Assembly: GCA_025603075.1 (NCBI GenBank)
Contig: MU626259.1
Span: 65,920-129,919 of the forward strand
Origin: Neoconidiobolus thromboides FSU 785
Taxonomy: Eukaryota; Entomophthoromycota; Entomophthoromycetes; Entomophthorales; Neoconidiobolaceae
Reading direction: 5' to 3'
DNA: 64,000 nucleotides
In this document: piece by piece, positions 30,167 to 59,881 of the stretch
Layout of the letters: each line of letters begins with the position of its first letter
How positions within the stretch are numbered: the stretch's first letter is position 1
Translations under genes and position numbers: made by a program
Notes under the pieces: generated by a model
Told to the model about the DNA's origin: nothing
Seen by the model: only the letters and a program-made list of their open reading frames with translations
The model's database searches: none

Positions 30167-30628
30167 TTAAACGAGGACAGTAGAAGATTCTGGATTTGGT
30201 TCAAAAACAATGGAAATGTCAACACTTCTTTCCACCATAAAAGGTTTCACAGGCAACACTCTAATTCTATTAAAAGAACTAATAACATTTTTTGATAGTG
30301 TTTCAAACGATTTTGAAAACAACGGAGTCCATAAAATCTTTTTGACTAACTTTGTATCTGTATAGTGTTCTATTACTTTATAACAACCCCAAATTGTAGT
30401 TAGATGACTTTTTAATTCAATTAAATACTCTTTGTCATCTAAAGCATAAACAGAATCATAAATACATTCTTCTTTCATTTGTATAATAAATCGTTTTTGT
30501 TCAATTAAGGACTGTTGGATTGTTTTTAATTGTTTGTGAATGATAATGTTGTTGTGTTGTAATAAAATTAAATCAATTGTATTTTGTATCTTTTCTAAAA
30601 TACTATAACAACAGTAGTTTGTCTCCAT
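30167..30628 (-). CDS. Helical family protein, member 1 (subgroup A)
   Basis: 153 aa, single exon, ATG at 30628. Predicted all-helical: LEKIQNTIDLIL near the N-terminus, then IEQKRFIIQMKEECIYDSVYALDDKEYLIELKS in the middle (family core), then IWGCYKVIEHY. The C-terminus carries the subgroup A motif RIRVLPVKPFMVER and ends in a short acidic tail (FEPNPESS). No signal peptide, membrane span or Cys pattern. It is most similar to the gene at 49801 (shared LEKIQN-ID, IEQKRFII-MK, IWGCYK, RVLPVKP). Function unknown; one of seven paralogues between 30 and 60 kb. Confidence 0.75.
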   Translation of the reverse strand: METNYCCYSILEKIQNTIDLILLQHNNIIIHKQLKTIQQSLIEQKRFIIQMKEECIYDSVYALDDKEYLIELKSHLTTIWGCYKVIEHYTDTKLVKKILWTPLFSKSFETLSKNVISSFNRIRVLPVKPFMVERSVDISIVFEPNPESSTVLV

Positions 30629-30703
30629 TTCCTATTCGATTTTTTTATTTGTTTATTATTGTTTATTTATTTCCTTTTTATATCTTTTACTTTATACAAG
30701 GTT

Positions 30704-30711
30704 TTTATATA
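30704..30711 (-). promoter_or_regulatory. TATA box of helical member 1
   Basis: TATATAAA on the minus strand, about 76 bp before the ATG. Confidence 0.45.
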
Positions 30712-31490
30712 AAGCGAGCCGATTTTACCTGATAGTTTGGATTAAGGAACTAAGTCATTTAGGCATTAAAGTTCTTCCAACTATATTGAAGCCTAATTAA
30801 CTGCTCATTTAAGAAATATGCTCAAGTAATAATCTATCAAAAAAATAAACATCAAGCCTTAAAAATCTAGTATATAGATAGATTAATTACAAAATTCACC
30901 GTTAATAAAGTCGTAAAAGAGTTGTAACAGCTGCAATGTCAGTTTAACCTTAATTTGATCCAGAAGTTAGTTGATTAGGTAAATTCGATTTCAAAAAATT
31001 TTGAAATCTTTATCATTATCTATTTAAAATAATATTATATCAATTGCTATAATTCGCTATTGAAAAAAGTTTTAACAAATTGAACCTAAAATAGAAATTT
31101 ACAACATTTAATAAAAGCTATTCAACTTCCTTTATTTCCCGATTGCAGTCTAAAGACCCCATCAGTAAAGTTTACAAATTTAAAGTTCTTTGCAATTCAT
31201 CTTCTACCATGTGCAAAACAAGAATTGTCAAAAAACAAGTACTCTAAATTCATTAAAGCCTTAACCATTCGCTTTATAAGCTTCTGAATAGTATTTGACC
31301 ATATACCAGTCTTGGATATAATTTATTTTACCTGTCTTTATTTAATAACTTGTTTGTTTAAAATTTGGAATCTCGAATGTAGATTGTTTAATACTCATTA
31401 TATCGCATAAATTGCTATTTTTGTGTTTTTATCCAACAGTTGCTTAGCTAAGATTTAACCTAGACCTTATTTAAGTTTTAAGCGTGTTAA
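30712..31490. other. Intergenic, no gene seen
   Basis: AT-rich spacer between helical member 1 and the inverted repeat; no ORF or RNA. Confidence 0.5.
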
Positions 31491-31718
31491 AAAGTAGTCA
31501 AAGTTTTACAACAAATTCAATTTGTTATCAGTTCCTGTTAAAAATTTGGGATTGATCTATGATCATTTTTGCATAATTTATGAGGTAAAAAAAAACCGAC
31601 CAATTAAAATTAGTGCGTGAATTTAAGTTTACTGATGTAAAAATGATCATAGATCAATCCCAAATTTTTAACAGGAACTGATAACAAATTGAATTTGTTG
31701 TAAAACTTTGATTACTTT
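31491..31718. repeat. Near-perfect 80-bp inverted repeat
   Basis: Arms 31491-31570 and 31639-31718 are reverse complements with a single mismatch by eye, separated by a 68-bp loop with no coding frame. It shares no terminal sequence with the 105 bp element. A transcript would form a very stable hairpin. Confidence 0.93.
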
Positions 31719-31991
31719 TACTTTGTTTTTTAAATATAATATTAAATAACCCATAAGTAAAGACTTTTTATAAAAGTAAAAACAATAAATCTTTAAACGT
31801 AAAAATTTAAATATAAAATTAAATCTATAACATTATTATTGATTAAAACATATTTAATAATTTTAAATTTGAGTAGAATTTAAGAAACTATTGTAAATTA
31901 GTTAAATAGTTTATCATTTTAATTTGCTCCGAAAATTTTCACTACCTAATTAAAAGACATTATTTTCCTTTTTGATCTCCATAATCAATAA

Positions 31992-32095
31992 ATGGGGGTG
32001 TTTTTTTGGTTTCATTACTTTTTTCATCTTTTAACTACTATTTGGGCGGAAAAACTGTTAGTAAATTGTTAAATAAAAAATACATCCTCAAATAT
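31992..32095 (-). mobile_element. 105-bp TIR element, copy 14
   Basis: Minus copy, ATGGGGGTGTTTTTTTGG to ATACATCCTCAAATAT. Confidence 0.82.
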
Positions 32096-32298
32096 AGTAG
32101 AAAATAGCTATTACTATGTCTTTTATATATAATTACCTAGTTAAAGTATAAATAAGGTTTTTTAATATAACAACTTAAGCCCTTTAATCAAATTATTTTC
32201 TAATATATATTTTTAAAGTTATTAGCTTTTTTTTAGTATTTCATATAAATTTTATAATATCATCTATTTTATTTGTTCTGTAGAGTCTGTGGTCTATT

Positions 32299-32356
32299 AT
32301 ATGGGGATATATTTTTATGTTCAAGAATTTCCCTGATAACTTTTCCATACAATCTA
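32299..32356 (+). mobile_element. 105-bp TIR element, 5' half only
   Basis: The left terminus ATATGGGGATAT and the following ~45 bp up to TTTTCCATAC are present; the right half is missing. A truncated copy. Confidence 0.65.
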
Positions 32357-32606
32357 ATAAATCAACATTTATTTAAAAATTAAAAATTAATTATTATTAT
32401 ATTACTGATATTAATTATGTGATTCTAAATTTGAATAAATTTTAAAGATGTAATATAGAAAATAAAACTTATTACCAGAATTTTAATATTGACAACATTA
32501 ATTTAATTAAAATATTTTATAATTAAAAAACTTAAATTTTTTCTAAGTTTTTTCTAAATTGTTCAAAAGTTTGCTTTAATTTTTTGTAACTAAAATTATG
32601 TTTAGG

Positions 32607-32708
32607 TTATGGGGGTGTTTTTTTTTAGTTTCATTATTTTTCCATTTTTTAAGCGCTATTTGAGTAGAAAGATTGTAATAAAATTCTTAGAAAAAATACA
32701 TACCCTTA
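32607..32708 (-). mobile_element. 105-bp TIR element, copy 15
   Basis: Minus copy, TTATGGGGGTGT to ATACATACCCTTA. It creates the spurious plus-strand frame at 32609-32824. Confidence 0.82.
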
Positions 32709-32905
32709 TTTTAAATTTAAACATGAAAATTTTTTTAATGATAAACTTAAATAACAAAAATTTTTGCTTTTATTATTATTTTAAATATTTAGTATTGAAA
32801 AAATTATTTAATAAAAATCTATAAAATATTATAAACCAGATATAAAAAAACACTTTCTATTTTTAATTATTTTTGAAATAAAATATTTTAAAATATTTAA
32901 CAATT

Positions 32906-33006
32906 ACATGAGGATGTATTTTTTGCTTAACAATTTTACTAATAATTTTTCTGCTTAAATAGTACTTAAGATGAAAAAAGTAATGAAAAAATACATCCAC
33001 CTATAT
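32906..33006 (+). mobile_element. 105-bp TIR element, copy 16
   Basis: Plus copy, ACATGAGGATGT to ACATCCACCTATAT. Confidence 0.82.
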
Positions 33007-33445
33007 TAATCTTAACTTTTGATTAATATTATATATTTATAATAAATTAAATACAAAATTATTATTAAGACTATTATTTATTAAACTACATAATTTGAAG
33101 TATATTATTAAAATATATTAAAAATATTTATAACACTAAAGTGAAATTTATTTATCCAGACTTCGCTGCTAAAAGTTAATAAGGATAATTGTTAAAGCAC
33201 TCAAAAGATCAAATGACTATTTGAGCATTAATAAACTAATAAAACATAATCATCATTTTACTTTAAATAAAAATTTAATATGAGAAAAAAAAACTAAATA
33301 AACATATTAGAAAATTATCAAAATACTTAACTTAAACATATACAGGGTGCTTTTAAGTCAAAGAGAAAGTTTTTGTTGTGATGAATCTGTCTAATAAAGT
33401 CCTTTTCAATTGACTCAAAAGTATATAATAAATAATTTCAAAAAA

Positions 33446-33518
33446 TGCTCCGTATAGGGCTTGAACCTATGACCTTAGCGTTATTAGCACCACGCTCTGC
33501 CAACTGAGCTAACGGAGC
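33446..33518 (-). tRNA. tRNA-Ile (AAT)
   Basis: Exact reverse-complement copy of the tRNA gene at 11837-11909; anticodon AAT, no intron. Confidence 0.97.
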
Positions 33519-34361
33519 CTAGAAGTTGTTTTTTGTTTTTAGAATAAATATATATTATTCTAAAAACATATAATTAACCGAAATGCTAAAATACATAATC
33601 ATAGGCTTTTGATTAAGTATCAATAGACTCTACAAGAGTTTAAAAAAATGTTATCAGCAGTTTTGATAGGATTTCATTAATTTGTCATAGTCCTTAATTA
33701 AATATTTCATGTTAATAATGATAGTTTAATCCATCCAGACTTGTTCGAGATGGGCTGGAAATTTATCTGGTTTAGATTGAAGATTATACTCTCCATATCT
33801 AAAGTTCTACAGTTTACTAATTGTTTAAAGAATAATATTATATCTAATTCTTTGAATTGAAATCTTCGCTAACATGTCAAGTAATGTATTAATTCTTGTT
33901 TAACATTAAAATTGACGCTTCTAATTTGTTTTAAGAATAAAGTTACCAAATATAAAAGATAGGTTATTAAATTTAAAAAAATAGAAAATAAGATCAATAT
34001 TCCGAATTCTGTAACCAAGTTCATAATATTAATAAGGTGTAACTATAATACATTGATATTCTATATATTGGATAGTTATGGTTTACTATATTTCCTTATA
34101 GCTTATTGAAATGTATTAAAAACAATGAAGTTACTTAGAATGGTAACTATGATCAATATTTATTTATAGAATCGACTTAAATTTAATAAATGAAGTTACC
34201 TCAGCCTGGGCCATAAAATTTAAATTCTTTAATTGATGAATAAATATAATTTAGAATAAGCGTATATGTTTGTAAATTCAAGTATAAAAATAAAAGATAT
34301 AAATAAGAGATCTTTTATTGATAGTTTTAATTTAAAACTCTTATTTTTTAATTTTTTTATT
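33519..34361. other. Intergenic, possible gene debris
   Basis: No intact ORF before the next helical-family gene. Leucine-rich fragments on both strands near 33720-33920 recall the decayed F-box/LRR gene but are too broken to annotate. Confidence 0.35.
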
Positions 34362-34850
34362 ATGATTACTAATATCCTTTCAACTACCATTGATAATAAT
34401 AATATCATGAATAATATTAAATGTATATTAGAAGACATTGAGATATCAATCAAAAGAATTTTAAAAGAAATTAATAATATAAAATTATATCATCAAATAG
34501 ATTATATAAACAATAGTGAACTGAAACTTATTAAAGAAGAATTAGATGAGCAACAGAAGCTAATAGTCGATATTAAAGATAATTATTTATTAGATCAAGT
34601 CTATGATTTCGAAAAAAAAGAATATTATTTATTGTTATTAGATTATTATAATTTAATAGTATCTTTTCAAAATATATTATCATTTTATTGGAATACTAAT
34701 AATTTGTTGGATTTTAGACAAAATCAAACTTTTAAACATTCGTTTAATATTTTAAATGGTAAATTAATTGATAAGTTTAATAAGGTTAGAGTATTACCTG
34801 TCAAACCCTACTTGGTTAAAAGAGATTTTAGTCTGAGTTATTGTGTTTAA
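34362..34850 (+). CDS. Helical family protein, member 2 (subgroup A)
   Basis: 162 aa if started at 34362 (MITNILSTT); the frame is open back to 34266 and a further Met lies at 34407. The family core is IKEELDEQQKLIVDIKDNYL followed by DQVYDFEKKEYYLLLL; the C-terminus has NKVRVLPVKPYLVKRDFSL, nearly the same as member 5 (RVLPVKPYLVNRDF). Very rich in Asn, Ile and Leu. No acidic tail. Start choice follows alignment with the shorter N-termini of the relatives. Function unknown. Confidence 0.7.
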   Translation: MITNILSTTIDNNNIMNNIKCILEDIEISIKRILKEINNIKLYHQIDYINNSELKLIKEELDEQQKLIVDIKDNYLLDQVYDFEKKEYYLLLLDYYNLIVSFQNILSFYWNTNNLLDFRQNQTFKHSFNILNGKLIDKFNKVRVLPVKPYLVKRDFSLSYCV

Positions 34851-35290
34851 AGTGGATGACTTTCTTATAATAGGTTTAGCCTTTCTAATGACATTCAATT
34901 AAGAATATTCTTTTTAAGTGATAATTCCGTCTTTATTATATGATTTTACAAATGTTCAAAACAGTATTCTTTCAAAATAAGCAGTGCTTCAGGAATTTCA
35001 TATGCTGGATAACAGGAGTTTGATCCAAGGTTATTTTTTTCCCCTATTTTGTACTACTATCTTAGCTATCTTTAATGATAGATAAATCCCTCTATTTTAC
35101 TAATCCTTTCCTAACGCATACTTCTATTCTTAGAGTCTTTTAATAAGTTGAATTTCATCAATAATCAATTTTTATTTCTCTCCTATATTTATGTTGAGTA
35201 TTCGATATTTCATTAAAGATATAAATTTTATGAAAATCTTTTTTATTTTTTAAAGTTATATATTTTTACTACAATAAATAAATTGCAAGA
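34851..35290. other. Intergenic, no gene seen
   Basis: AT-rich 3' flank of helical member 2; no ORF or RNA. Confidence 0.5.
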
Positions 35291-35384
35291 TACATGGAGC
35301 TGTATTTTTTAAGAATTTTACTGACAATCTTTCTACTTGAATAGCACTTAAAATAAAAATGAAATCAAAAAGACATCCCTGTAT
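35291..35384 (+). mobile_element. 105-bp TIR element, copy 17
   Basis: Plus copy, TACATGGAGCTGT to GACATCCCTGTAT, slightly shortened inside. Confidence 0.8.
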
Positions 35385-35501
35385 CTTCTCTATTAAGCTA
35401 TTTTTGTCCATTTTACCAAGCATAATTTAAAAAGCTGCTAATTAAATCTGTGAAACAAAGGATACAATTTTGTATTTATATTAATAAATATAAATTAAAG
35501 A

Positions 35502-35608
35502 ATATGGGGATGTATTTTTGTATTTAAGAATCTTACTAACAAATTTTCCACTCAAATAGCACTTAAAAAATGGAAAAAATAATGAAGTCAAAAAAGACAC
35601 TCCCATAT
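35502..35608 (+). mobile_element. 105-bp TIR element, copy 18
   Basis: Almost identical to copy 13 (28904-29010). Left terminus ATATGGGGATGT is perfect. Confidence 0.92.
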
Positions 35609-35797
35609 CATGTTTGAAGTCATGTCAAATTAAAGTTGAATATTTACAAATAATGGATCAACATAGTTACTTTGCTCAAAGCAACATAAAAAAGATAGGA
35701 ATAAGTGTATTGTTTTTTGTATCTTGTTTATTAATTACCAACATCGTTAAAATTATAGGTTTATATTATAGCAAAAACCGAAGGAGCAAGAAGAAAA

Positions 35798-35871
35798 GCT
35801 CGTATGGCGCAATTGGCTAGCGCGTTCGACTGTTAATCGAGAGGTTGCTGGTTCGATCCCAGCTATGAGCG
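35798..35871 (+). tRNA. tRNA-Asn (GTT)
   Basis: 74 nt. Acceptor GCTCGTA/TATGAGC, anticodon loop CTGTTAA (GTT), T-arm GCTGG-TTCGATC-CCAGC. No intron. Identical to the minus-strand gene at 43037-43110. A GUN-anticodon tRNA, hence a substrate class for queuosine modification (see QTRT2 at 52615). Confidence 0.97.
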
Positions 35872-36201
35872 TATAATTTTATCTATTTTTGTCCCTTATG
35901 TTTCCATCTCTGCTAATAATAGAGCTTTATAGGTCAATTCCCTTAGTTTTTTTTTGAAAAAAAAGATCGAGTATTATCCATAGCTTGGAACTTTTTGTTT
36001 CTTTCATTAACCTGGAATATGTTTTATATTTATTTATTTTTGACTATTAATAAAACATTTAGGATTATTGATATTTTCAAGGATTTAAAAATACTCGATA
36101 TTTAAAAACAAAGATAAAATAAAATATTTTTTTATTAAACACGGATATAATCTTTAAAAGTGAAGGAAATTCGTAGAATTAGATTGTTTTAAAGAAATTA
36201 T

Positions 36202-36519
36202 TTAAACCTTATCACTACTGTTGCCTTTTTTGCCAAATAAACCTTTTAAGGTAGCAATAAAACCTTTGACTTGTTTTACCGCTTTTTCTATACTTGGTTT
36301 CTCAGCCTCTTTTCTTTCTAAATATTCATCAACGCTCCACGCTTGCACATCTCCTCTTTTTTGTTTTTTACTAGTTTTTAATACTTCTGGTTTGGAATTT
36401 TGTAATAAATCCACAGGGTTGACATTGATGTTCAATTCCCCATTTCGGTTGTTTGGGTTTACTAATACACTAGTGCTTATAAATGTTAGAAATAATAATA
36501 ATAAATAAAATTTAAGCAT
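36202..36519 (-). CDS. Small secreted protein, tandem member A
   Basis: 105 aa. N-terminal signal peptide MLKFYLLLLFLTFISTS, then VLVNPNNRNGELNINV. A dibasic site (KKQKR) precedes GDVQAWSVDEYLERKEAEK, and the end is lysine/glycine-rich (GFIATLKGLFGKKG). The hydrophobic start, the (V/I)LVN.NN..ELN block after it and the W-S-V-D motif are shared with the next gene. No cysteines after the signal. Effector-like or matrix-like secreted protein; function unknown. One of three same-strand paralogues in 3.3 kb. Confidence 0.75.
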   Translation of the reverse strand: MLKFYLLLLFLTFISTSVLVNPNNRNGELNINVNPVDLLQNSKPEVLKTSKKQKRGDVQAWSVDEYLERKEAEKPSIEKAVKQVKGFIATLKGLFGKKGNSSDKV

Positions 36520-37307
36520 TGTTAATAATACAGTTGTTTAAAAAGTAGAAATGATTTAATTTAATTTATATCTTTTGTTTTTATTTTTATTTTATTGATC
36601 TTCCCTATTAGGGCTGATTTTTAAGATCTTGGTTGGTCGATCCCTTTTACTATTCAAAATAAGGATAAGATGTTTTTCATTGTTACAGAAAATTATTTAA
36701 GAATATTTTATTGCTCGATGTTTTCAATACTTAATGGACTTATTCTTATTTTTAAATGATAGTGATGATAATAGTTCATTCTAATAAAGATAGTTTTATA
36801 AAATTTTACTCTGATTCAATTTTAAAGCTTAAAGCTGTAGTTAATAGTTTTTTAACTTAATAACTTTTATTGAATTGATTTATAAATTTTCAACTCATCT
36901 TCTTTTATTATGTTATGAAAAGCACATTCCTTATATAGGTAGATTACGGAACAACAAGAACTGCTCTCTAAAGAGCTTCTATACATTCAATATAACTCCA
37001 AACTACACCAAAATTAAGATAATAATATATGAACGTTAAATTGTAAAAAAGGCAATTCTTCCATTGGGTTCAAGGCTAACATGAGCTAATACCCTCCTCT
37101 TTTCGCTCTTTATCTTTTTCACCCTTCTTTTAAACTTTCATTGTCCCAAATAAACCATGCCTTTTATATTGATGAGTAATAAAAAAAATACAGCTAACTT
37201 ACTCTGTAATTATTTTAAACTTTTATATTTTAAATAATTAGAAAATCCCAACTGACTCAAAAACATTATAATAAATAAATAAACATAAAGTAAAAGCCTG
37301 TAAAGTT

Positions 37308-37871
37308 TTATTCTTTATCATTATCACCAATGTATTTTTTAAATGGAGGTATCATAAAATTTAAATGTCTCTTTTCGAAAAATAAAATAATTTTATCTTT
37401 ATATTGAATCATAGCAGCTTTGATAAAAGCATTGACATCCATATTATTTAGTTTAGCAAAAAGTGCTTTTAAAGCAGAAACTCCAGCACCAAATGCTCCT
37501 TTTACTGATGTTTTTAATTTATTGGCTTTTGAATTTGTATTTGGTTTTTTGTCTAAAAAATCATCATCTACACTCCATGTGGAAGTGTCATTTTTCTTTT
37601 CGCCTTCTTTATCGTCTTCATCTATAGAAGAGCTTTCCTCTTCTGAATCCTCTAAAGAATCATTTGTGTTGGTCTCCTCAATTACTTTCTTTTTCCTCAA
37701 ACGTGACAAAAAGGAGGATTTTTTAGTACCACTATCTCCTTTGTTTTGATTCAATATTAATTCCTTTGGTTTTATGTTAGCGTTCAATTCACTATTTTTA
37801 TTATTTGTGTTAATTAATACACTAGCGTTAATCAATATACAAAATAAAAGTAACAGGTAAAATTTAAACAT
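37308..37871 (-). CDS. Small secreted protein, tandem member B
   Basis: 187 aa. Signal peptide MFKFYLLLLFCILINAS, then VLINTNNKNSELNANI. A basic stretch (RLRKKK) and a long acidic Ser/Glu/Asp block (SLEDSEEESSSIDEDD) follow. Next come STWSVDDDFLDKKP, matching the W-S-V-D motif of member A, a helical Ala/Lys region (KGAFGAGVSALKALFAKL) and an extra C-terminal segment of about 45 residues absent from member A. Function unknown. Confidence 0.75.
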   Translation of the reverse strand: MFKFYLLLLFCILINASVLINTNNKNSELNANIKPKELILNQNKGDSGTKKSSFLSRLRKKKVIEETNTNDSLEDSEEESSSIDEDDKEGEKKNDTSTWSVDDDFLDKKPNTNSKANKLKTSVKGAFGAGVSALKALFAKLNNMDVNAFIKAAMIQYKDKIILFFEKRHLNFMIPPFKKYIGDNDKE

Positions 37872-38093
37872 TATTAATATTAGTTGTTTGAAAACTACAG
37901 CAACTTCTATTTTAGTCTATTATATATCTTTTAATTCTTTTTTAGGATCTTCTCTATTTGAGCTGATTTTAAGATCTTAATCGGAAGATCATTTTACAAC
38001 TCAAAAAATAGAGATTGAATTTGAATAATAATTTTTACAAAAGTTTTCAAATACTATTATTAGCTTGATTTTAACCAATATATAATTTTAATA

Positions 38094-38196
38094 ATATAGA
38101 GGTGCTTTTTTTGCTTTATTACTTTTTTTATTTTTTAAGCGCTATTTGACCGGAAAGATTGTTAGTAAATCCTTAAAAAAATACATTCCTACATAT
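38094..38196 (-). mobile_element. 105-bp TIR element, copy 19
   Basis: Minus copy, ATATAGAGGTGC to ATACATTCCTACATAT. Confidence 0.8.
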
Positions 38197-38452
38197 TAAA
38201 AATAAAGCCATAGTAAAAAAAAGCTTATTTCCTACAAATTCAAAACTCTACAAAAATAACTATTTGGTTTAATTTAACTAGGCATAATACCGTATATAGT
38301 AGAAAAGTTATCATATTTTTATAATAATATTACCTATTAATTAACACTAACTGTATTTAGATTCGCCAATTTAATTTTTAAGCACTGGGAAAATATACTT
38401 CAGATAATATTAAACTAAAAGCTATTCATGTTAGTATTTCCAATTACTAAAG

Positions 38453-38555
38453 ATATGGGGATGTTTTTTTTGTTTCATTATTTTTTCCATTTTTTAAACG
38501 CTATTTGAGTGGAAAAAGTGTTAGTAAAACTCTCAAATAAAATACATCCCCATAT
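38453..38555 (-). mobile_element. 105-bp TIR element, copy 20
   Basis: Minus copy with good termini ATATGGGGATGT and ACATCCCCATAT. Confidence 0.9.
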
Positions 38556-38871: not shown

Positions 38872-38970
38872 CTTATTAAAATGGAAACATAATTTACAAA
38901 ATAATAATGAAATATAATCAATATAAATTAATAATATATAAGCATTTATTATACTCTTTAATAAAACTAT

Positions 38971-39534
38971 TTAAGTGGCCTTTGGACTTGGGAGCGGAGG
39001 TAATTTTATATTATTTTTTGCTAAAAGTTCATCAATTTTATATTTTGTTTGATCTTTGACTTCCAAAAAGAAATTTTTAGCATCATCTTTAGTTAGCTCT
39101 AATTTTTGTTTAACTTTAGCTTTGTCTTCTTCTAGTTTTGCTTTGAATTCATCATCTTTTTCTTGCTTTTCTCGTTTCTTTTCTTTCTTACTTTTCTTTT
39201 TCTTTTTTTTGTTCTTTTTGTCCTTTTTATCTGTGCCTTCTTTTTGTTTCTTTGAGTTGTCCTTGTCCTTTTTCGTTTTTTCTTTTTTTTTCTTTTTCAC
39301 TTCTACTACCCTTTCATTTTCATTTTCATTTTCGTTTTCATCTTCATTTTTTTCCACCTCTTCATTATCTTCAAGTTCATTGTCTACATTTGTCACTTTC
39401 TCTTTGCTTTTATTGACCATTAACTCTGAGCTTTTACTATTATCATTTAGTACTAAGCCACCACTACTATTACGATTAACTAATACTCCAGCATTAATCA
39501 AAGTTAACAATAGAATTAATAAATACGTTTTCAT
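38971..39534 (-). CDS. Small secreted Lys/Glu-rich protein, tandem member C
   Basis: 187 aa. Signal peptide MKTYLLILLLTLINAG, then VLVNRNSSGG and a SSELMVN block like the neighbours. The rest is extremely charged: an E-N repeat block (ENENENE) and a run of KK/KD/KE words over residues 75-130, then a more regular helix (FKAKLEEDKAKVKQKLEL) and LAKNNIKLPPLPSP at the end. It lacks the W-S-V-D motif. Related to A and B only by the N-terminal block, so the shared origin is an inference from signal, block and tandem position. Confidence 0.7.
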   Translation of the reverse strand: MKTYLLILLLTLINAGVLVNRNSSGGLVLNDNSKSSELMVNKSKEKVTNVDNELEDNEEVEKNEDENENENENERVVEVKKKKKEKTKKDKDNSKKQKEGTDKKDKKNKKKKKKSKKEKKREKQEKDDEFKAKLEEDKAKVKQKLELTKDDAKNFFLEVKDQTKYKIDELLAKNNIKLPPLPSPKAT

Positions 39535-43723: not shown

Positions 43724-44416
43724 TTATTTAGAGTTTTCAATCACTGAAAAAAACTCCTTTCTCTTTGAAGGGTAAACGGAATGTACTCTTAGCTCTTTTT
43801 TGTTAATATCAAAATTAAAATGACGATTGTTTAAAGAGTACTCATTTGTTGAATGATTTCTAGTATGAGAAAATTGGATTTTAATAGGTGACACCAAAGG
43901 CAAGTGGTTTGTAAGGCTGATATCTTTACTATCTCTTTTTATCATTTCATCTGGATTAGGTGGGAATGATATTTCACTTAAATTAATTGAAACACCACAT
44001 TCGTTAAGCTTTCTTCTACCTTTTTTTAATGGAATTTTGGCTATAACATCACATGACGCCACAAGCCTCTTTTTCATATCTAGTATATTTTGTTTAAATT
44101 GAGAGTGCATTTTAAACCTCTTTACTAATGAATATTGCTCAAAGCACATCAAAACGGAGTGGTAGCCAATTAATAAAGAATGATGAAATTCCACTTTTTG
44201 AAAGTAACGTTCATTATTGAAATTATATATATCTTTTTCTTTAAAATATCGGTCCTGTAAGGTTTGTATCAACTTTAAATTACATTCGATTATGTTGGTT
44301 ATTAAATTAACTGGACTTAACTTGTGCTTCAGCTTATTTTGTAGTGTTATTACTGTCTCGATTAATTCAACCATACGTCCATATTCTATGTAAACATCGT
44401 ACTCTTGTACCATCAT
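43724..44416 (-). CDS. Helical family protein, member 3 (subgroup B, long)
   Basis: 230 aa from the first of two adjacent Met codons at 44416; the open frame extends further upstream without ATG. The core has IQTLQDRYFKEKDIYNFNNE then YFQKVEFHHSLLIGYHSVLM and VASCDVIAKIPLKKGRRK, corresponding to the YDL and LP(L)K regions of the relatives. It has the longest C-terminal extension of the family: ISFPPNPDEMIKRDSKD and a basic/Ser tail (YPSKRKEFFSVIENSK). No signal or membrane segment. Function unknown. Confidence 0.7.
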   Translation of the reverse strand: MMVQEYDVYIEYGRMVELIETVITLQNKLKHKLSPVNLITNIIECNLKLIQTLQDRYFKEKDIYNFNNERYFQKVEFHHSLLIGYHSVLMCFEQYSLVKRFKMHSQFKQNILDMKKRLVASCDVIAKIPLKKGRRKLNECGVSINLSEISFPPNPDEMIKRDSKDISLTNHLPLVSPIKIQFSHTRNHSTNEYSLNNRHFNFDINKKELRVHSVYPSKRKEFFSVIENSK

Positions 44417-47485: not shown

Positions 47486-48028
47486 ATGCTATTTCCTTTC
47501 ATCAATTCTATGAAATACAAAAAAAATAATTCAACGATGATAATTAAAATTGAAAACGAGATCAAGCAAATATTATCAATTTATCATTTTTATGACATCT
47601 TTCAAAAAGTACAAGAAGTCGATACTATTGTTAGACAAGTACAAGAAATACTGCTTGATCAACATGTCTTTATACAAAAAGTTAAAGGATACATAAAAGA
47701 TGATAGTATTTATTCGCTTAATAGTATTTATTACCATGATCAATTAGAAAAATATTATCATGCATTGGTAGACTATAACTATGTATTTGGGACTTTCTTA
47801 CATAGCAATAATTACAAAAAAGCTCAATCAATAGATACGCTTTATACCTCTTTTCAAGTATCATTGGCTAGATTAACCATTGCGTCTAAAAACATTACTA
47901 AACTCCCTTTAAAGGTATTTAAAGTTAATATTTATAAGGAATCGAAAATCGAAGTTGTTGAATATAATAAAGCTCTTAGTGTTGGCTTTTCTCAAGTGAT
48001 TGCCAAAGGCAACTTTAAGCTAACTTGA
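47486..48028 (+). CDS. Helical family protein, member 4 (subgroup B)
   Basis: 180 aa from the ATG at 47486; the Met at 47537 (MIIKIENEIKQIL) would fit the N-termini of relatives better. The core is ILLDQHVFIQKVKGYIKDDS then IYSLNSIYYHDQLEKYYHAL, and IASKNITKLPLKVFKVNIY gives the LPLK motif. The tail is short and ends in FKLT. The frame reaches back to 47399, but only through a GTG. Function unknown. Confidence 0.68.
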   Translation: MLFPFINSMKYKKNNSTMIIKIENEIKQILSIYHFYDIFQKVQEVDTIVRQVQEILLDQHVFIQKVKGYIKDDSIYSLNSIYYHDQLEKYYHALVDYNYVFGTFLHSNNYKKAQSIDTLYTSFQVSLARLTIASKNITKLPLKVFKVNIYKESKIEVVEYNKALSVGFSQVIAKGNFKLT

Positions 48029-49800: not shown

Positions 49801-50283
49801 TTAGGAATCAATAGAATGTAGTGAACTAAGTGAGGGAGTATCACAGGCTATATTATCGAAATCTCTGTTAACTAGATATGGTTTCACGGGTAGCACTCGT
49901 ACTAGATCAAATGAAAAGTCGATATTTTGATTTAAATTTTCTAGTGCTATCAAAAATAATTCTCCCATTCTAACTTTTTCAATCACTTTCTTGTTATAAT
50001 AATATTCAAATGTTTTATAGCATCCCCAGATTAAAGCAAAGTAAGCTTTTAACTTGGCTAAATAATCTGCTTGACCTAAATCGTAGACTTCATCGTTAAC
50101 ATGCTCTGCCTTCATCTCTATAATAAACCTCTTCTGCTCAATTAATGAATTTTTTAGCCTCTTCAATGATTTATTTATGTTGAACTTTTGATACAATGTA
50201 AATATATCGCATCTGTCTAAAACTAAATCAATAATATTTTGTATTTTTTCAAGTGTCTCGTAGCAACTATAATTATCATTCAT
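49801..50283 (-). CDS. Helical family protein, member 5 (subgroup A)
   Basis: 160 aa, single exon. Closest relative of member 1: LEKIQNIIDLVL, SLIEQKRFIIEMKAEHVND, EVYDLGQADYLAKLKAYFAL, IWGCYKTFEYYY and DLVRVLPVKPYLVNRDF occur in the same order. An acidic/Ser tail (DTPSLSSLHSIDS) closes it. No signal peptide or membrane span. A TATATAAA box lies 39 bp before the ATG. Function unknown. Confidence 0.77.
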   Translation of the reverse strand: MNDNYSCYETLEKIQNIIDLVLDRCDIFTLYQKFNINKSLKRLKNSLIEQKRFIIEMKAEHVNDEVYDLGQADYLAKLKAYFALIWGCYKTFEYYYNKKVIEKVRMGELFLIALENLNQNIDFSFDLVRVLPVKPYLVNRDFDNIACDTPSLSSLHSIDS

Positions 50284-50321
50284 TTAACTATTGATTCATA
50301 ATCAATGTCACTTTCCTGATA

Positions 50322-50329: not shown

Positions 50330-52165
50330 ATTTTCCTCCCACCTTATTTTCTTTTATTGTATATGAATAATATAAACCTTAACTTATTCCTTATATTGAA
50401 AAATATATTTAGCGATTCACAAATTGCTCCAATTAATTAATATTAATTTTATTTTTTGAAGCTTATAATTGGAATTGACATTAAATTAATTATTATTTTA
50501 ATCATTCCTATATCATTTTACCCATTTTCTCCGTATTTTATTAAGGATCTCCACATATATCACCTACTATTGCATATATTTATAACAAGATAAGCCGTCT
50601 ATGTATTTCTTATGACTTTAGCTTACCATACTGCAAAGGTAGGCACAATTAATAAACAACAAAGTGTTCGAATTTAACATTTATAAGCAATGGATGGTAT
50701 ATTTCAGTCATATATTACATTCTACCATCTGCTCAAATGATAATATTTATTTCATTATTTATTTTCCCTATCACTTATTTTAAAATTTTTAGATTATATT
50801 GGTAATTTACGTATTAAAGCAGGTTTTTTTCTTTAACTAAATTTTCAATGGAAATTCCCAAATAAGGCTTCTTAATGTATTATAGTAAAGTCATTAAAAC
50901 TTATAAAAGGTATTGTTAGTAACTTTTAAAATTTAAATTTCTATAATCCTGAATGGTTGTTATATTATAAATCAAGTGCCAAATAAACTTTTTGTAATCT
51001 ACTCTTACATACTTAAACGCCTTTTTTGCGTTTTTATAAAGCTTTAAAGAGATTTAAAATGAACATGTAGGTTAGATATGACAATCGGGAATTGCAAGGA
51101 AGCACAGTTTCTTCGATTTCGCAATTTTAAGAGTAGCCAAGTTTTATTCAAACTGATATCAGAATTCGTTTCAAATCCATAACCTACCCAATACTAATGA
51201 TACAAGTCACCACAATTTGATTCAAGAGTTCTTGAAATTTATATAACTATCTCTTCAATGTTTTGCGGATTTTTAAAGGCCAGTATACCAAAAGAATCAT
51301 TGGCTTAAATATTCTCAAAAATTAATGTAAAGAATATTAGTTTGAAATATAAGAACATTGAAGAGAAAAAATGGATGGTTTAACAATTTATATCCTACAG
51401 CGAATAGATATGCTAAAGCTCTGTTTAAAAATATTGAACTAGACATAATACCATATCAAATGAATGAACAAAGCCTAAAATTCATTAAGATATACAGATA
51501 ACTACTAGAACTAAAATTAAATAATTAAATAAGAACTAAAAGATCATTATTAGTAGAACTGAATAGTCGTTTGAGGACTTTATTTAATTTATTTATGATG
51601 TTACTTTAATTTTTATATTAAATTAAAAAAGTAAAGAATAAAGTTAAAGCCTTTATATTAATTTGTACACCATATTCTAAAAATAAAACATGTTATAAAA
51701 TAGACAGATCATTTTTGAAAACCATATTGATATGAATCTCGCTTACTAATGTTATCTCAATGTTTTACTTAATTGTATTTCCCTTTTTAAAAAAGGTTAA
51801 ATATAATAACATCTACAAAGCATAACAACCTTACCAATTAGTTTGTAAAGAGTACTGCTGTCTTATACCAAATATCATATTTGTTTGAATATTTAACAAT
51901 AAGTTATAATTAACTTCAGTGCTATAAATAGTATTAATATTTGATGCATCAATTGCACTAGGCCAACATGATTATAGATTTTCTTCTAAATTACCAATAT
52001 TCAAATTGAATTTTGAATAAAAAGTAACTTTTGGTTGATTTATTTGTTCATCCTTTGCACTATATTAGAATAATGCTACTAAAACAATAAAAACATATTT
52101 ATTTTAAACATTAAAATAGTTTATATCTTATTTACTTGATAGAAAAGCATCTAAGTTAAAAAGAT
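50330..52165. other. Intergenic, no gene seen
   Basis: 1.8 kb AT-rich spacer without ORF, RNA or TIR copy. Confidence 0.5.
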
Positions 52166-52238
52166 GCCTGATTAGCTCAGTCGGTAGAGCATGAGACTTT
52201 TAATCTCAGGGTCATGGGTTCGAGCCCCATATTAGGCT
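52166..52238 (+). tRNA. tRNA-Lys (TTT)
   Basis: Acceptor GCCTGAT/ATTAGGC, anticodon loop CTTTTAA (TTT), T-arm ATGGG-TTCGAGC-CCCAT. No intron; discriminator base T is unusual. Identical to the minus-strand gene at 62783-62855. Confidence 0.96.
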
Positions 52239-52614
52239 TCAAACTAGTATCAACAGATATTTTAGTACCCTTATTCTAAGGAAATAAGGTTTTGAATCGT
52301 TTTTTACTTGGGATCAGATTCTGGAGTAATGGAGTTATTAGACTATTTAATATTGAAGAAATGAATTAGTTTGATAGATGAGTATGTTTTCAAGGAATTT
52401 TATAGGATTCATTTTCAAATTTTGTGTAGTCTGAAAATAAACAAAATATTGAAGCGAATTAGAGCATTCTATAAATTAATCTCTAATTATATATTAACCA
52501 ATAAAACACTTAATTTTTAAGTTAAAGAATAAAAAAAATAAAACCAAAAGTAACAACTCTTTAACTATCCACCGATAACAACAGATCCTCATAGACAAAG
52601 ATAGAAGTAACGCT

Positions 52615-54139
<1,525 letters not shown>

Positions 54140-55154
54140 GTTGAGTATAGGTCATAATAAGAGTAGATTATAGAATAAGTTGGTAAAATAGTCCTTTTTT
54201 AAGCGTGAATCTAAATAAAGTTTTCTAAAAAAGGATTGAAAGATAAGATAATGAAATGTTTTCATTGATTTTTTATTATTAGTAACAAATTTAATAAGAT
54301 TTTATTATATTATTATTATATTGATTTTTTAAAGATATTTTAATCAATTTTTTAAAATATTTTTTAATCATAAACCTAAATAAACTTTCAAGAAGGATTT
54401 TTTAATCCTATTAAATAAGGTTTTTTTATTTCAAGTTAAAATTAATATATTGAGTTACCGAATTATACCAGAATAATGATATTAAAATAATACTTTCAAA
54501 AAAAAGAAATAAAACATTTAATGCTAAACTATATTATTGATATTATTAATAGCTTATTTTATTTAATACTCCTTTAACTATTTTAAAAGTATTGAACCAT
54601 AACGACAATTGCATCTCAGTAGCATATACTTAGTTAAAAATTAAGGATACACTAAAGTTATCTATACTTCAAACCCTTTTTTTATTAACTTATATCTCCT
54701 TTTTAAATTACTAAATTTCTTGGGAAATTCGGATTTAGGATGTTTGAAGTTAATACTGAAGTTAATACTGAATATAGAAATAAATTGCGCTACTATTTAA
54801 TAGTAATAAAATTGCGCTTGTTATTTAATATCAATTTTTTATTAAAACAGATTCAATAAATACTAGTTTTAAATGGAATAATATAAAATAATAATCATTG
54901 ACTTAATTTTAATATTTCAAGGACTTTGAGGACCCAAAATTTGTAAAATTAGGTACTTTTTAATCACGACGCTTAATTTTATAAATATTTTTAAAAGAAT
55001 AAATACTAATTAATTTTGGTGGGGTAGTTGCTAAAGAATGGGTTAAAATTTTTTTTATAAAAAGGGATTTTGAGTGAGGTATCTAATATTAATACCAAGG
55101 TACTAATAAGAATAAAAACATTTAAATAAATTTGACATTAGGTATAAAAAAAGG
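54140..55154. other. Intergenic, no gene seen
   Basis: AT-rich spacer. Small local duplications occur (GAAGTTAATACTGA twice near 54750, ATTGCGCT twice near 54790), no ORF. Confidence 0.5.
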
Positions 55155-55162
55155 TATATAAA
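55155..55162 (+). promoter_or_regulatory. TATA box of the serine protease gene
   Basis: TATATAAA 136 bp before the ATG, the same distance as in the tyrosinase gene. Confidence 0.5.
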
Positions 55163-55297
55163 CTTCCAATTTACACCCAACAATTATTAAAAAATCATTT
55201 ACATTTCTTTTTTTTTCTGTGAAAAAAAATTGCTATTGCTATTGATTATTATTGCTTTTAGATAACTACCACTAAATAATTATTTTCTATTAAAAAT

Positions 55298-56290
55298 ATG
55301 CGTTTCATCATTCCATTTATTACTCTATTTGCGCTTATCTCTGCCCAAGATAATGATGAACCTAGTAGTCGAATCATTGGTGGCAGTGTAGCCCAAAGAG
55401 GAAAATATAATTATATGGTTCATATTATTATCAATAACAGTAACATGTGTGGTGGTTCTTTAATTGCAAAAGATACGGTACTTACGGCTGCTCATTGTAT
55501 TGCAGGAAACAATCCAGGCTCTTATAACGTACGTGGCAACATTCATAACATTCGTAGTGAGCGTGGAGAACAATTGAGAGTAACTCAAGTAATTACTCAT
55601 CCTCAATTTAATCGTCAAAATTTGGATAATGACATTGCTATTTTAAAAATTAATCCAAGTCATAATATTAATTCCTTTTTAACTCTTGATACCAATAACT
55701 CAGCCCAAATCAATAATCAAGTATTAGTCACTGGTTGGGGACGTACTCAATCTTTTGGACAAAGTAGTGATGTATTAAAAGAATTAAATATGAAAGTATT
55801 AGATCCTCAAGTATGTTCTCGTAATGTAGCGCCTTTAAATGAAAGAACTCATTTCTGTGCCACTGGTGTACAAAATGGTTCTTCTGCTTGTCAAGGTGAT
55901 TCTGGTTCCCCTGTAGTTAGTAGTGATTTAAGAACTATTGTCGGTTTGGTTTCTTATGGTACTGAAGGTTGTAATGCTCCTTCTGCTGCTTTCACTAGAA
56001 TTTCGAATTTTGCTTCTTGGATTCGCCAATATTCTAGTGGATCTGGTAACCCAGGACAAGGACAAGGTAATCCAGGACAAGGACAAGGTAACCCAGGACA
56101 AGGACAAGGTAACCCAGGCATTCCAAGTGATAATAGCTATCCAAAAGGCTCATGTACTCAACCTGGAGAAACGATTTGCTTTAGTCCCCAAAAAGTAGGT
56201 GTTTGTGCTAATACTCAATTTGCTTATCCATATGATTGTCCACCAGGTACAACTTGTAAACAAAGTAATGGTAGATCTTATTGTCAATAA
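55298..56290 (+). CDS. Secreted S1 serine protease with Cys-rich C-terminal module
   Basis: 330 aa. Signal peptide MRFIIPFITLFALISAQ, short propeptide ending SSR, then IIGGSVAQRG as the mature N-terminus. Catalytic triad: His66 (LTAAHC), Asp112 (DNDIAIL), Ser202 (GDSGSP). The S1-pocket position six residues before the catalytic Ser is Ser196, not Asp, so specificity should be chymotrypsin-like rather than trypsin-like. After residue 248 a linker of three GNPGQGQ repeats (21-bp DNA repeats) leads to a 50-residue module with six cysteines (SCTQPGETICFSP ... CKQSNGRSYC), resembling small carbohydrate-binding modules. Likely secreted for cuticle or protein degradation. Probably single exon. Confidence 0.93.
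   Translation: MRFIIPFITLFALISAQDNDEPSSRIIGGSVAQRGKYNYMVHIIINNSNMCGGSLIAKDTVLTAAHCIAGNNPGSYNVRGNIHNIRSERGEQLRVTQVITHPQFNRQNLDNDIAILKINPSHNINSFLTLDTNNSAQINNQVLVTGWGRTQSFGQSSDVLKELNMKVLDPQVCSRNVAPLNERTHFCATGVQNGSSACQGDSGSPVVSSDLRTIVGLVSYGTEGCNAPSAAFTRISNFASWIRQYSSGSGNPGQGQGNPGQGQGNPGQGQGNPGIPSDNSYPKGSCTQPGETICFSPQKVGVCANTQFAYPYDCPPGTTCKQSNGRSYCQ
56045..56118 (+). repeat. 21-bp coding minisatellite
   Basis: Three full 21-bp units plus a partial fourth (GGTAAYCCAGGACAAGGACAA), encoding the Gly-Asn-Pro-Gly-Gln linker of the protease. Differences are only synonymous (AAC/AAT). Confidence 0.9.
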
Positions 56291-57327
56291 ATAGTACTGA
56301 AGTGGTATTGATTTCAATATTTATAATCTTTTTTTATTGATATTGTATATTATTATTTTTATGTAAAACATGAGTTTTGAAGGTATATAACAGTAAAATC
56401 CATAAACTCGATTTTTAGTTTCGATTAAAAGTCATTATTAGGTCCTTAATTAAAGTAATATAAATAAGAATAACCAATGCAGTAAAAAAGACTAGTATTT
56501 TATTAAAATTAAATTCATTTTCCTACCCAATCTCTGGTTTATATATTAATTGGAGTAACGTCACCAAATATCATTGATATTGAAAATTAATCCATTACTT
56601 AAGCAACATTGAAATTTTAGTAGAGTTCATACTGATTGGGATTGGTAAAAGTTAAATGTAATGATTTCTTATCTATTTGCTATAAAAGAAAGGTACAAAT
56701 ATAAAACTAAAATCTCAATTTAATATTATATTATAATATAGAAAAATATTAAGTAAAATTTCATTCTTTAAAGTTTTAACTGTAACATTAATTTTTATTA
56801 TTTAATATCTAGTATTTATCTATTTTAATTTCTTTTTTAAGAATCAGCTGTGAGCTTGAATTCTTAAAAATTTAAAAATATCAATCTCCACACGTTAAAT
56901 ACTAGTTTTTATTTTTATTGTAACAATGTGATTTTAAATTTTATTCAATATTTTTAATACCTTTGATCTATATATAACTTGGTATCATGTAAGCACTATT
57001 TTAATAGAAATCAGTTAATAAAAATAGATATATCATAAAGAAACTCCATAAACCCACAGGTTCGTAATATTATAGATGATAAGGTTAATTAAAATTGGTA
57101 CAGCTAATAAATGAATAAAAACTATGTTCTTATTCATTTGGATTTGTGATTAATCTATTGAATTCATTAGCCTAAGATTTGATATAAAATAAATTTAGTA
57201 ACTTTTATTAAAAAAACTCAATATTTCTTACCTGATAGCCAAGAAATTCATTAACTTGTTTACTACATTTATAATAAAGAACAAATGTTATAAAAGATAA
57301 TTCACAAATAATGAACATTATAATAAG
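56291..57327. other. Intergenic, no gene seen
   Basis: AT-rich spacer without ORF, RNA or TIR copy. Confidence 0.5.
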
Positions 57328-57335
57328 TATATAAA
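57328..57335 (+). promoter_or_regulatory. TATA box of helical member 6
   Basis: TATATAAA 41 bp before the ATG. Confidence 0.55.
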
Positions 57336-57375
57336 TCCATGGCAAAGTAATTTTATAGAATTAAAATTCTTCAAA

Positions 57376-57936
57376 ATGAATTATACAGAATATGATAGTT
57401 ACAAGCTAATCGAAAATTTATACAATCAAGGTTATGAGATGAATAACAATCTGAAGTCTAAGTTTCAACTACACTTCAATACACCAAAGGAATATAAATC
57501 ATTAAATGATACAATTCAATCTCAAAATAAATATTTATCAAGATTAAAAGAGAAATATGAGTATGAATCTATTTATGATTTAAAACATTCTAATTTAATA
57601 ATAAAACTAAAAGATCAATTAAGTTTATTAAAAGTGATTCATCAGTATATTATCCATTATAACCACCTTTCATTATTTAAAAAAATCAAGTTTTTATCTC
57701 AGTTTAAATTAGTATTGAGGAAACTGTCTTTAAAAGTAATGAATGGGCTAAATAATCTTAAATTATTACCACTTAAACAAATTGTCAATAGTGAAAATAC
57801 TGCGGGTATTAAGTGTAACGATAAATGTAATATAGAACCCTCCATTCTATTTGAAATGTCCTTTGAAACAGATTGTTTATCATTAAATGAGCCTCATGTT
57901 CATCATTTTTCAACTAATCCTTTTCTAACGGAATAA
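57376..57936 (+). CDS. Helical family protein, member 6 (subgroup B)
   Basis: 186 aa. Core: SRLKEKYEYESIYDLKHSNL and IIKLKDQLSLLKVIHQYIIH, then LSLFKKIKFLSQFKLVLRKL and LNNLKLLPLKQIV. The C-terminal tail includes IEPSILFEMSFETDCLS, which matches FEPSIIFDLSFSP of member 7, and ends with several His residues (EPHVHHFSTN). No signal or membrane span; lysine- and tyrosine-rich. Function unknown. Forms a same-strand pair with member 7, 1.3 kb downstream, with a TIR element between. Confidence 0.75.
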   Translation: MNYTEYDSYKLIENLYNQGYEMNNNLKSKFQLHFNTPKEYKSLNDTIQSQNKYLSRLKEKYEYESIYDLKHSNLIIKLKDQLSLLKVIHQYIIHYNHLSLFKKIKFLSQFKLVLRKLSLKVMNGLNNLKLLPLKQIVNSENTAGIKCNDKCNIEPSILFEMSFETDCLSLNEPHVHHFSTNPFLTE

Positions 57937-58286
57937 TCAAATATTTCTTTACATTCCTCTCTCTTTATTGTTAATTATTTAATAAAAATTTAAACTTATA
58001 ACTGTATCTTCCTTAATCCTATCTCCTATCTCCTATCTATTAATTACTTGGCTTTTGGATTTATTTTAAAAAATTAATCAAAATCTATGGTGCTTAGTTG
58101 AAGAAATGATTTTATTAAACATATATGTTTGTTTTATTATTAACTTTTACTTTTTGTCATTGAATTTATTGTTCTTAATGAAATAATAAATCTTTAATAA
58201 ATCGAACTTTGATTATTTAAAAATAAATCTACACCATAATTTATTGATATCTAAAAGTGACTTAAGAATTCCGAGAAAATAATAGT
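57937..58286. other. Intergenic, no gene seen
   Basis: AT-rich. A short TCCTATC repeat lies near 58015-58038. Confidence 0.5.
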
Positions 58287-58393
58287 ATATGGGGATGTAT
58301 TTTTGTGTTTAAGAATTTTACTAACAAATTTTCCGCTTAAATAGCGCTTAAAAAATGGAAAAAGTAATGAAGTCAAAAAAAACACTCCCATAT
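58287..58393 (+). mobile_element. 105-bp TIR element, copy 25
   Basis: Plus copy with perfect left terminus ATATGGGGATGT; right end ACACTCCCATAT as in copies 13 and 18. Confidence 0.92.
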
Positions 58394-59210
58394 GTTATTT
58401 ATGTCAAAATAGTAACTAAATCATATACCTAAATAATTCTTGAATGTATAAAAGGTAGTCATAATATATAAAAGTTATATAGTATATAATAATAGTTATA
58501 TATGTATGCCTTTATATTAGTATAAACCTATATTAAATATTATAAATCCTATTATAATAAATCACAAGTGATATCATAAAACATTAAAATACTCACTTTA
58601 TAAAAATAGAAAAGTACAATACTGGAATGCATAATATCTAAAATACAAGTTGTGTATAAATAGATCTATCCGAATTATCAATACCAGTTTAAGCAGTTTT
58701 TATATATGTGGAAATAAGTGGTAATAAGTCTAAAATGAAATTCAAAATTTTTATTTATAAAACTTAATATAATTAAAAATATAATAAAAAAGAATCTATC
58801 CAGCCTGAATAATTAATTGATCATGTACCAGCTTTAGTATTTGTTACAACAAAAACTGTGTAATATTCAAATATAAGATATGAATATCTTTTTTCACTTC
58901 ACTACTTCATTTTTTCTGCAATATAAAAATTTTGAAATACTAATCGAACATCGAAACAGAAACATGTTATCATGTCTTGAGTTTTATATGAAGCAGTAAC
59001 GATATAGTAGTAAAATAGTATCCAAATGGAATTGAATTACAATGAACTTACAAAAAAAAGACTCATATTGGGAACAAAAGTGAAATAATCAATGTAATGT
59101 TATAATTAATAAACTCAACAGCTTAAACGACAATTTTTTATCAAAATGATTTGATTTTAGCCAAGATTTATAATTAATTAAAAAAGCTTGAATTTTGTTC
59201 TAGAAAAAAA
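58394..59210. other. Intergenic, no gene seen
   Basis: AT-rich 5' flank of helical member 7. Confidence 0.5.
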
Positions 59211-59220
59211 TATATATAAA
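59211..59220 (+). promoter_or_regulatory. TATA box of helical member 7
   Basis: TATATATAAA ending 43 bp before the ATG. Confidence 0.5.
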
Positions 59221-59263
59221 TAAAAGAAAAGAAAAAAGTATATAATTATACAATATTCAAAAC

Positions 59264-59881
59264 ATGATATCAATATTTTACAAGAAAAACGGAACCTTTG
59301 AGCTATTACAGAAACTTGAAACTAAAATTCAATATATGAAATCGGATATTGAAAACAATAAGCTTAATAGTGGGATAGGCAAAGTGAGTACTGGTCTAAA
59401 TGAAATAATAAATTTGTTAAAAGTACATGAAATCAAAGTAATTCAAATGAAAAAAAAATGTGAATTTAAAAGCAAATATGATCTATACAAAAAAGAATAT
59501 TTATTTCAGTTAAGATATCATCTTTCTCTACTATTAGGATTGCAACAGCTATTGATTTGTTACATAGAAAAGGATATATTATCAAGATTGAAATTTCAAA
59601 AAGAATTTATTACTGGTGTTCACTTTTTAAAATTTAAGCTAATAGCTTCTTGGCATATTTGTAAAGCCCTTCCGTTGAAAGAAAAACTTAGTGAGGTTGA
59701 TGAAAATAAATTCAACGATGATAATGTTGACTTAGTATTCGCCAATAAGGGTGATGAAGATGAAATAAAAGTGATGTTTGAACCATCTATTATATTTGAT
59801 CTCTCATTCTCTCCTATTGAAGAAACTAAAAGAAGTAAACGTTATGCTTCTATCTTCGAAAAAGATAGTATAATGTTATAA
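59264..59881 (+). CDS. Helical family protein, member 7 (subgroup B)
   Basis: 205 aa. Core: LLKVHEIKVIQMKKKCEFKS then KYDLYKKEYLFQLRYHLSLL, and IASWHICKALPLKEKLSEVD. An acidic insert precedes IKVMFEPSIIFDLSFSPIEE, the tail motif shared with member 6. The end is basic and Ser-rich (RSKRYASIFEKDS). The most complete example of the subgroup B layout: N-terminal coil, YDL core, LPLK, EPSI-F tail. Function unknown. Confidence 0.77.
   Translation: MISIFYKKNGTFELLQKLETKIQYMKSDIENNKLNSGIGKVSTGLNEIINLLKVHEIKVIQMKKKCEFKSKYDLYKKEYLFQLRYHLSLLLGLQQLLICYIEKDILSRLKFQKEFITGVHFLKFKLIASWHICKALPLKEKLSEVDENKFNDDNVDLVFANKGDEDEIKVMFEPSIIFDLSFSPIEETKRSKRYASIFEKDSIML

Follow-up and report, generated by a model that had tools for sequence, protein, structure and literature searches.

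Fungal cell-death research rests largely on Dikarya, in which HeLo domains are controlled by NOD-like receptors (NLRs) and amyloids. In MLKL, the animal executioner of necroptosis, a helical bundle freed from its pseudokinase permeabilises the plasma membrane, and HeLo and RPW8 proteins are described as its relatives in the relevant sections of PMC12881547, PMC10197012 and PMC6684095. Homologues of the MLKL family (TCDB 1.A.105) that carry Sel1 repeats are reported, in the part of PMC8778642 that deals with them, exclusively from Glomeromycotina. The locus studied here belongs to Neoconidiobolus thromboides FSU 785, an AT-rich entomophthoralean fungus with a 23.1-Mb genome in 392 contigs and a reported 8867 genes (PMC11105155). 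The window, that is, the whole stretch of 64,000 nucleotides analysed (C2:65920-129919), contains seven open reading frames (ORFs) of 153-230 aa, in the strand order - + - + - + + and spaced by 1.3 to 8.9 kb, here called A1-A3 and B1-B4 (Table 1). We think it probable that the seven proteins are stand-alone four-helix bundles of the MLKL/HeLo/RPW8 type, homologous to the N-terminal domain of pseudokinase-Sel1 proteins encoded in the same genome and most likely derived from that domain or sister to it.

The small bundle proteins and their relatives in the same genome

The initial annotation of the window described the seven genes as one paralogous family. Leave-one-out profiles agree, recovering all seven members (E-values from 5.5e-10 to 1.7e-37) from a set of 744 ORFs, 338 of them from the window. 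Over all seven tests, no window ORF outside the family scored better than E = 0.086. The four- to five-helix bundle that had been expected is also what the two AlphaFold2 (AF2) models predict, as A1 and B4 each show four main helices (predicted local distance difference test, pLDDT, 76 and 80; predicted template modelling score, pTM, 0.71 and 0.76). When these models were compared with known structures, the MLKL executioner domain came first among PDB chains for both, tied with IncA in the case of B4. Direct sequence matches are lacking: a Pfam scan gave nothing over cut-off and no HeLo-type match for any of the seven, a PDB sequence search gave nothing over cut-off, and no member matched MLKL_N (PF22215) at E <= 10, in a program whose filters drop most matches above ~0.1. 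The sole Pfam match under E = 0.1 links A2 to RPW8 (E = 0.032), with 14.3 bits against a cut-off of 30.4, which leaves A2 outside that family. The earlier description of the family as unrecognised holds for Pfam, but it has to be qualified by their remote homology to pseudokinase N-termini, which assigns them to a known domain family in part and at the superfamily level only.

Searches of the genome with six members (A1 was not used) placed all matches at E < 0.01 inside the cluster, and a seven-member profile run against an nr-type protein database retrieved three of 2563 candidate proteins at E <= 0.01, all encoded on the 353,717-base contig C2. Outside the cluster the six queries gave four weak matches, at C13:26617 (E = 0.018), C45:93758 (0.126), C2:140722 (0.437) and C2:44630 (2.06). 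On the ORFs at the first three places the seven-member profile scored 9.3e-6, 2.7e-9 and 2e-5, each time at the N-terminus; at C2:44630 it gave nothing better than 0.49, and this candidate was rejected. The C13 protein (815 aa) consists of an N-terminal helical domain, a kinase-like domain (PF07714, E = 3.5e-33) and Sel1 repeats. The C45 protein (L047:2182-3855, 557 aa) has an N-terminal bundle and Sel1 repeats and no kinase match, and it may be an intermediate form. On C2 itself, an ORF of 321 aa (C2:140605-141567, L045:1606-2568), whose related N-terminal bundle is followed by a long tail, lies ~15 kb past the last member and is probably an eighth, diverged member of the cluster, outside the window.

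With the C13 protein as query, four further genes of the same build were found, two on C50 (C50a and C50b), one on C98 and one on C16; in one of the C50 genes the Sel1 part is in a separate frame. The bundle of the C16 protein is not established, as it aligns with C13 over residues 182-459 and 662-815 only and its N-terminus scores E = 0.38-0.70; it was excluded from the tree and from the comparison with nine N-termini reported below. Read from their sequences, the five pseudokinase genes replace HRD by HKN, HKN, HRN, HGG and HAN, and DFG by GFE in four cases and GFG in one, in contrast to the remaining kinases in the 15 rows of the C13 search, all six of which have the canonical HRD and DFG. 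Human MLKL is described, in the part of PMC5104457 concerned, as inactive partly through the changes DFG to GFE and HKD to HGK. A protein-database search at E <= 1e-20, which scored only the 7993 candidates with most words in common, returned ten proteins. Six of these combine a kinase domain, Sel1 repeats and a related N-terminus, among them sequences from Entomophthora muscae (P0006) and Massospora cicadina (P0009), and all six carry HKN and SGFEFSRE; the predicted forms of P0008 and P0009 begin inside the bundle. The other four are kinases (E = 5e-23 to 9e-21). Residues 1-140 of C13 matched nothing in the database, not even themselves; the genome is incompletely represented there, and absence from it is weak evidence.

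The homology of the seven proteins to these N-terminal domains was evaluated by profile comparison (hhalign), whose E-values here refer to a single comparison and are not scaled to a database. Against the outside N-termini, the seven gave a probability of 95.9% and E = 5.9e-9 over 129 columns. The match to the four-row set C13+C50a+C50b+C98 has E = 1.2e-6 (score 43.8), and that to C50a+C50b+C98, which had not been found by matching the seven, has 8e-5 (score 33.4). Shuffling the columns of this four-row set gave scores no higher than 17.0 in 100 trials, and reversed profiles gave 18.4 and 19.1; circularly shifted profiles, with scores up to 40.7, are an uninformative control, as most of the alignment survives the shift. 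Nine N-termini found via C13 and not via the seven gave 8.6e-7 (score 44.8, shuffles up to 17.5 in 200 trials), in an alignment that begins at helix 2. At the level of single sequences, a profile of the seven cores detects four of the seven outside domains at E < 1e-3 (C45, C13, C2:140605 and C50a), with C98 at 0.088 and C50b and C16 not found at E <= 1, and the reverse search with the pseudokinase N-terminal profile recovers at E < 0.01 only B1 (1.6e-4) and B3 (3.8e-4). Adding C16 to the C50a+C50b+C98 set weakens the match to 0.0031 (score 24.9). At sequence level, these comparisons show a remote homology between the seven and the N-terminal bundle of the pseudokinase-Sel1 proteins.

Two other explanations bear on this relationship. 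One is that the likeness to MLKL is that of any four-helix bundle and that the seven form a lineage-specific structural or adaptor family with no connection to cell death. This seems improbable, since the sequence link to the pseudokinase-Sel1 N-termini is clear of the shuffled and reversed controls; moreover, two of the four weak outside matches fell on Sel1 or pseudokinase-Sel1 N-termini and one on C2:140605, which is unlikely by chance. The other takes the seven for decayed pseudogenes, left over from the N-terminal part of pseudokinase-Sel1 genes that duplication had broken, as their correspondence to the N-terminal domain only might suggest. We consider this very improbable: all seven frames are open, all seven proteins have a distinct common ending, (L/I)P(L/V)K, past the bundle, and in a 19-row tree (without C16) they appear as one side of a branch (92/91), not scattered among the pseudokinases, a grouping that is tentative because the branches are long. 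Nor were kinase or Sel1 remnants found beside the small genes: among 1224 open pieces from the window and ~38 kb of flanks, pseudokinase matches stayed at E = 0.18 or above and any Sel1 match above E = 1.

Likeness to MLKL and possible role

The seven are linked to MLKL by sequence through intermediates only, the pseudokinase N-termini, of which five of the ten scanned match MLKL_N, all under the curated cut-off of 27 bits. The best match is that of P0007 (E = 2.3e-5, 24.4 bits, positions 5-127 of 142), followed by C50a (0.018), P0006 (0.04), P0004 (0.2) and P0005 (0.4), with most of the model covered; the other five pseudokinase-Sel1 proteins show none at E <= 1. Genome-wide, the N-terminus of C50a (L049) gives the single MLKL_N match at E <= 10, with E = 0.009 and again under cut-off; one of 14 control genomes also yields such a match. 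A Pfam family of unknown function, DUF7792, competes for the same N-termini (P0007 0.0034, P0004 0.0067, C50a 0.12). With a profile of the seven outside N-termini, N-terminal chains of MLKL are matched across the whole domain at E = 0.29-0.37, and seven unrelated chains rank above them (0.036-0.28), so that this listing is only a hint. In the PDB searches with the kinase domains (2040, 2121 and 1061 matches), MLKL chains stand within the best 60, the first of them at ranks 7, 16 and 18. By itself the kinase domain does not point to MLKL in particular, because other kinases, for example CTR1 and, in the searches with 2121 and 1061 matches, also RIPK1, rank above its chains.

If the seven are bundles of the MLKL/HeLo/RPW8 type, each could be kept inactive by its own tail or by a partner, as in MLKL, HET-S-type HeLo proteins and RPW8. 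A trigger would then lead the bundles to assemble at a membrane, which would be permeabilised, and the fungal cell would be killed or isolated. The full-length pseudokinase-Sel1 proteins could represent the regulated, conserved version of this device, and the clustered small copies could be diverging effectors or partners that serve in defence or in telling self from non-self; by analogy, the conflict or allorecognition role proposed by the initial annotation would fit the superfamily. NACHT, the only NLR domain searched for, has no match over cut-off in the genome, and the six matches listed span no more than 34 of its 167 positions. We therefore conjecture that Sel1-pseudokinases are likelier partners of the small bundles than NLRs.

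The main rival accepts the MLKL-like origin but gives the seven a regulatory task: as decoys or inhibitors they would bind either the bundle or the pseudokinase of a full-length protein and keep that protein in check, instead of acting as executioners. The homology evidence is the same for it, the seven lack a pseudokinase, no kinase or Sel1 remnant was found in the window or the flanks, and the cores of A3 (isoelectric point, pI, 5.9) and A2 (6.1) are acidic or near-neutral, which does not suggest a basic lipid-binding surface. Yet four of the seven cores are basic (pI 9.2-9.6) and a fifth has a pI of 8.6, and seven diverged copies exceed the need for one conserved inhibitor; overall we regard this proposal as unlikely. 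Returning to the executioner bundle, a possible but on balance doubtful extension is that Entomophthorales have a necroptosis-like system of their own, made up of conserved MLKL-type proteins with bundle, HKN/GFE pseudokinase and Sel1 repeats and, in N. thromboides, of a cluster of diverging free-standing executioner bundles for self/non-self recognition or anti-parasite defence. In that case, the common GFE signature would make the executioner pseudokinase older than the animal-fungal split.

Divergence of the family and its surroundings

Besides the start Met, the only invariant positions are the Tyr of a Y-x-(L/F) motif, present in all seven members, and the Pro and Lys of (L/I)P(L/V)K. Several motifs of the initial annotation were confirmed, namely RVLPVKP in three members and an EPSI(I/L)F tail in two, and others had to be modified. 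A Lys two to three residues ahead of the Tyr is not a family feature (a Lys occurs within one to three residues in B1 and B4 only), and six members have one nine residues ahead. The Tyr at a fixed distance is found in six members, seven residues past the first. The LP(L/V)K motif, in the wider form given above, closes the bundle in every member but is not terminal, as tails of 14 to 99 residues follow it. A tail motif (E/P)P(S/N)(I/P)(I/L/D/E), a pattern derived from the four members that have it, occurs in no other window ORF of at least 60 aa. Subgroup A is clear for A1 and A3 (47% identity; support modest, 86/85), whereas A2 is 33% identical to each of them. The tree gives subgroup B no support as a clade, A1+A3 being the only group that it supports inside the family. 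The clustering on both strands with strong divergence was borne out. Birth-and-death evolution is plausible but would be old: synonymous divergence (dS) among the RVLPVKP members is saturated for A1-A3 and amounts to 1.85 and 1.96 for the other pairs, and recent turnover or positive selection cannot be shown because these sites are saturated or nearly so.

Table 1 Members of the gene cluster, with positions counted from the first nucleotide of the window
Gene	Position	Strand	Product	Evidence
A1	30167..30628	-	153 aa; bundle residues 5-123, RVLPVKP, tail with FEPNPES	Leave-one-out E 1.7e-37; AF2 model
A2	34362..34850	+	162 aa; bundle, RVLPVKP, short tail	Leave-one-out E 9.1e-22
B1	43724..44416	-	229-230 aa; bundle, IPLK, long tail with FPPNPDE	Leave-one-out E 2.6e-16
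B2	47486..48028	+	180 aa; bundle, LPLK	Leave-one-out E 5.5e-10, most diverged member
A3	49801..50283	-	160 aa; bundle, RVLPVKP	Leave-one-out E 4.9e-33; 47% identity with A1
B3	57376..57936	+	186 aa; bundle, LPLK, EPSILF tail	Leave-one-out E 7.2e-16
B4	59264..59881	+	205-aa ORF; bundle residues 11-133, LPLK, EPSIIF tail	Leave-one-out E 4.4e-17; AF2 model

The likeliest starts are ATG codons, at 44413 or 44416 for B1 and at 47486 or 47510 for B2. In nr, B4 is represented by a hypothetical protein of 219 aa (K502DRAFT_345465) whose last stretch differs from the ORF. Two further pieces gave weak matches: a 42-aa open piece ~6 kb past the window on C2 (L044:6712-6837), similar to the family N-terminus (E = 0.11) and either a relic or a chance match, and C137:26490-27086 (L071), which matches the C2:140605 protein (E = 0.038) and has five in-frame stops. 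The cluster span also includes three tandem genes for small proteins on the minus strand (S1-S3; 36202-36519, 37308-37871 and 38971-39534). They share a hydrophobic, signal-peptide-like N-terminus and similar first ~45 residues ahead of diverged lysine- and acid-rich bodies (three-sequence comparison: S1-S2 E = 1.1e-15, S2-S3 0.007 to 1.8e-7, S1-S3 0.35), and form a possible second local family. Judged by eye, two cluster members are preceded by a trypsin-like serine protease (55298-56290, +) whose start resembles a secretion signal and which has GQGNP repeats and a Cys-containing end. Directly after the last member comes a tyrosinase-like protein (60785-62608, +), again with a signal-like start, that contains Thr/Pro-rich and Lys/Pro repeats. 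Ahead of the cluster, G+C content is very low (18%) at 24001-26000.

Comparison with described systems

In the open-access literature, to the exclusion of subscription papers and preprints, MLKL was found together with Zoopagomycota only in PMC8778642, and no paper on MLKL-like proteins in Entomophthorales appeared by title or abstract among the matches listed. The presence of the seven-gene cluster and of full-length MLKL-like pseudokinases in one genome suggests that this early-branching lineage of fungi has a necroptosis-like system. MLKL-like pseudokinases with GFE, together with a cluster of bare bundles, in an early-diverging fungus would serve as an outgroup in tracing how necroptosis-like killing arose, a question that the GFE/HKN, bundle and Sel1 features make directly testable, and the cluster would be a candidate recognition locus.

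The Glomeromycotina homologues described in PMC8778642 are likewise fungal, Sel1-bearing members of the MLKL family, but the proteins reported here come from Entomophthorales and comprise HKN/GFE pseudokinases and a stand-alone bundle cluster, neither of which is mentioned in the relevant part of that paper. Fungal HeLo, HELL and Goodbye-like bundles (HET-S, HELLP, NLR effectors) are comparable as described relatives of the MLKL four-helix bundle (sections concerned of PMC12881547, PMC9815663 and PMC10197012), whereas the seven have no HeLo Pfam match and the genome has no NACHT match over cut-off. The plant RPW8/HR locus, as portrayed in PMC6684095 where these genes are treated, also groups bundle proteins locally, which have been likened to MLKL and HET-S and vary in their C-terminal parts; the match of A2 is nevertheless far under the Pfam cut-off, and the 14/21-residue tail repeats of RPW8/HR were not seen by eye in the seven tails. 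From MLKL the seven differ by having neither a pseudokinase, which is present in five related genes elsewhere in the genome, nor a direct MLKL_N match, and the full-length fungal proteins differ by their Sel1 repeats, MLKL being described in the part of PMC5104457 concerned as bundle and pseudokinase only. The seven resemble it in their predicted four-helix bundle, for which MLKL came first with both models, and the full-length fungal relatives combine such a bundle with a pseudokinase in which GFE replaces DFG, as in human MLKL.

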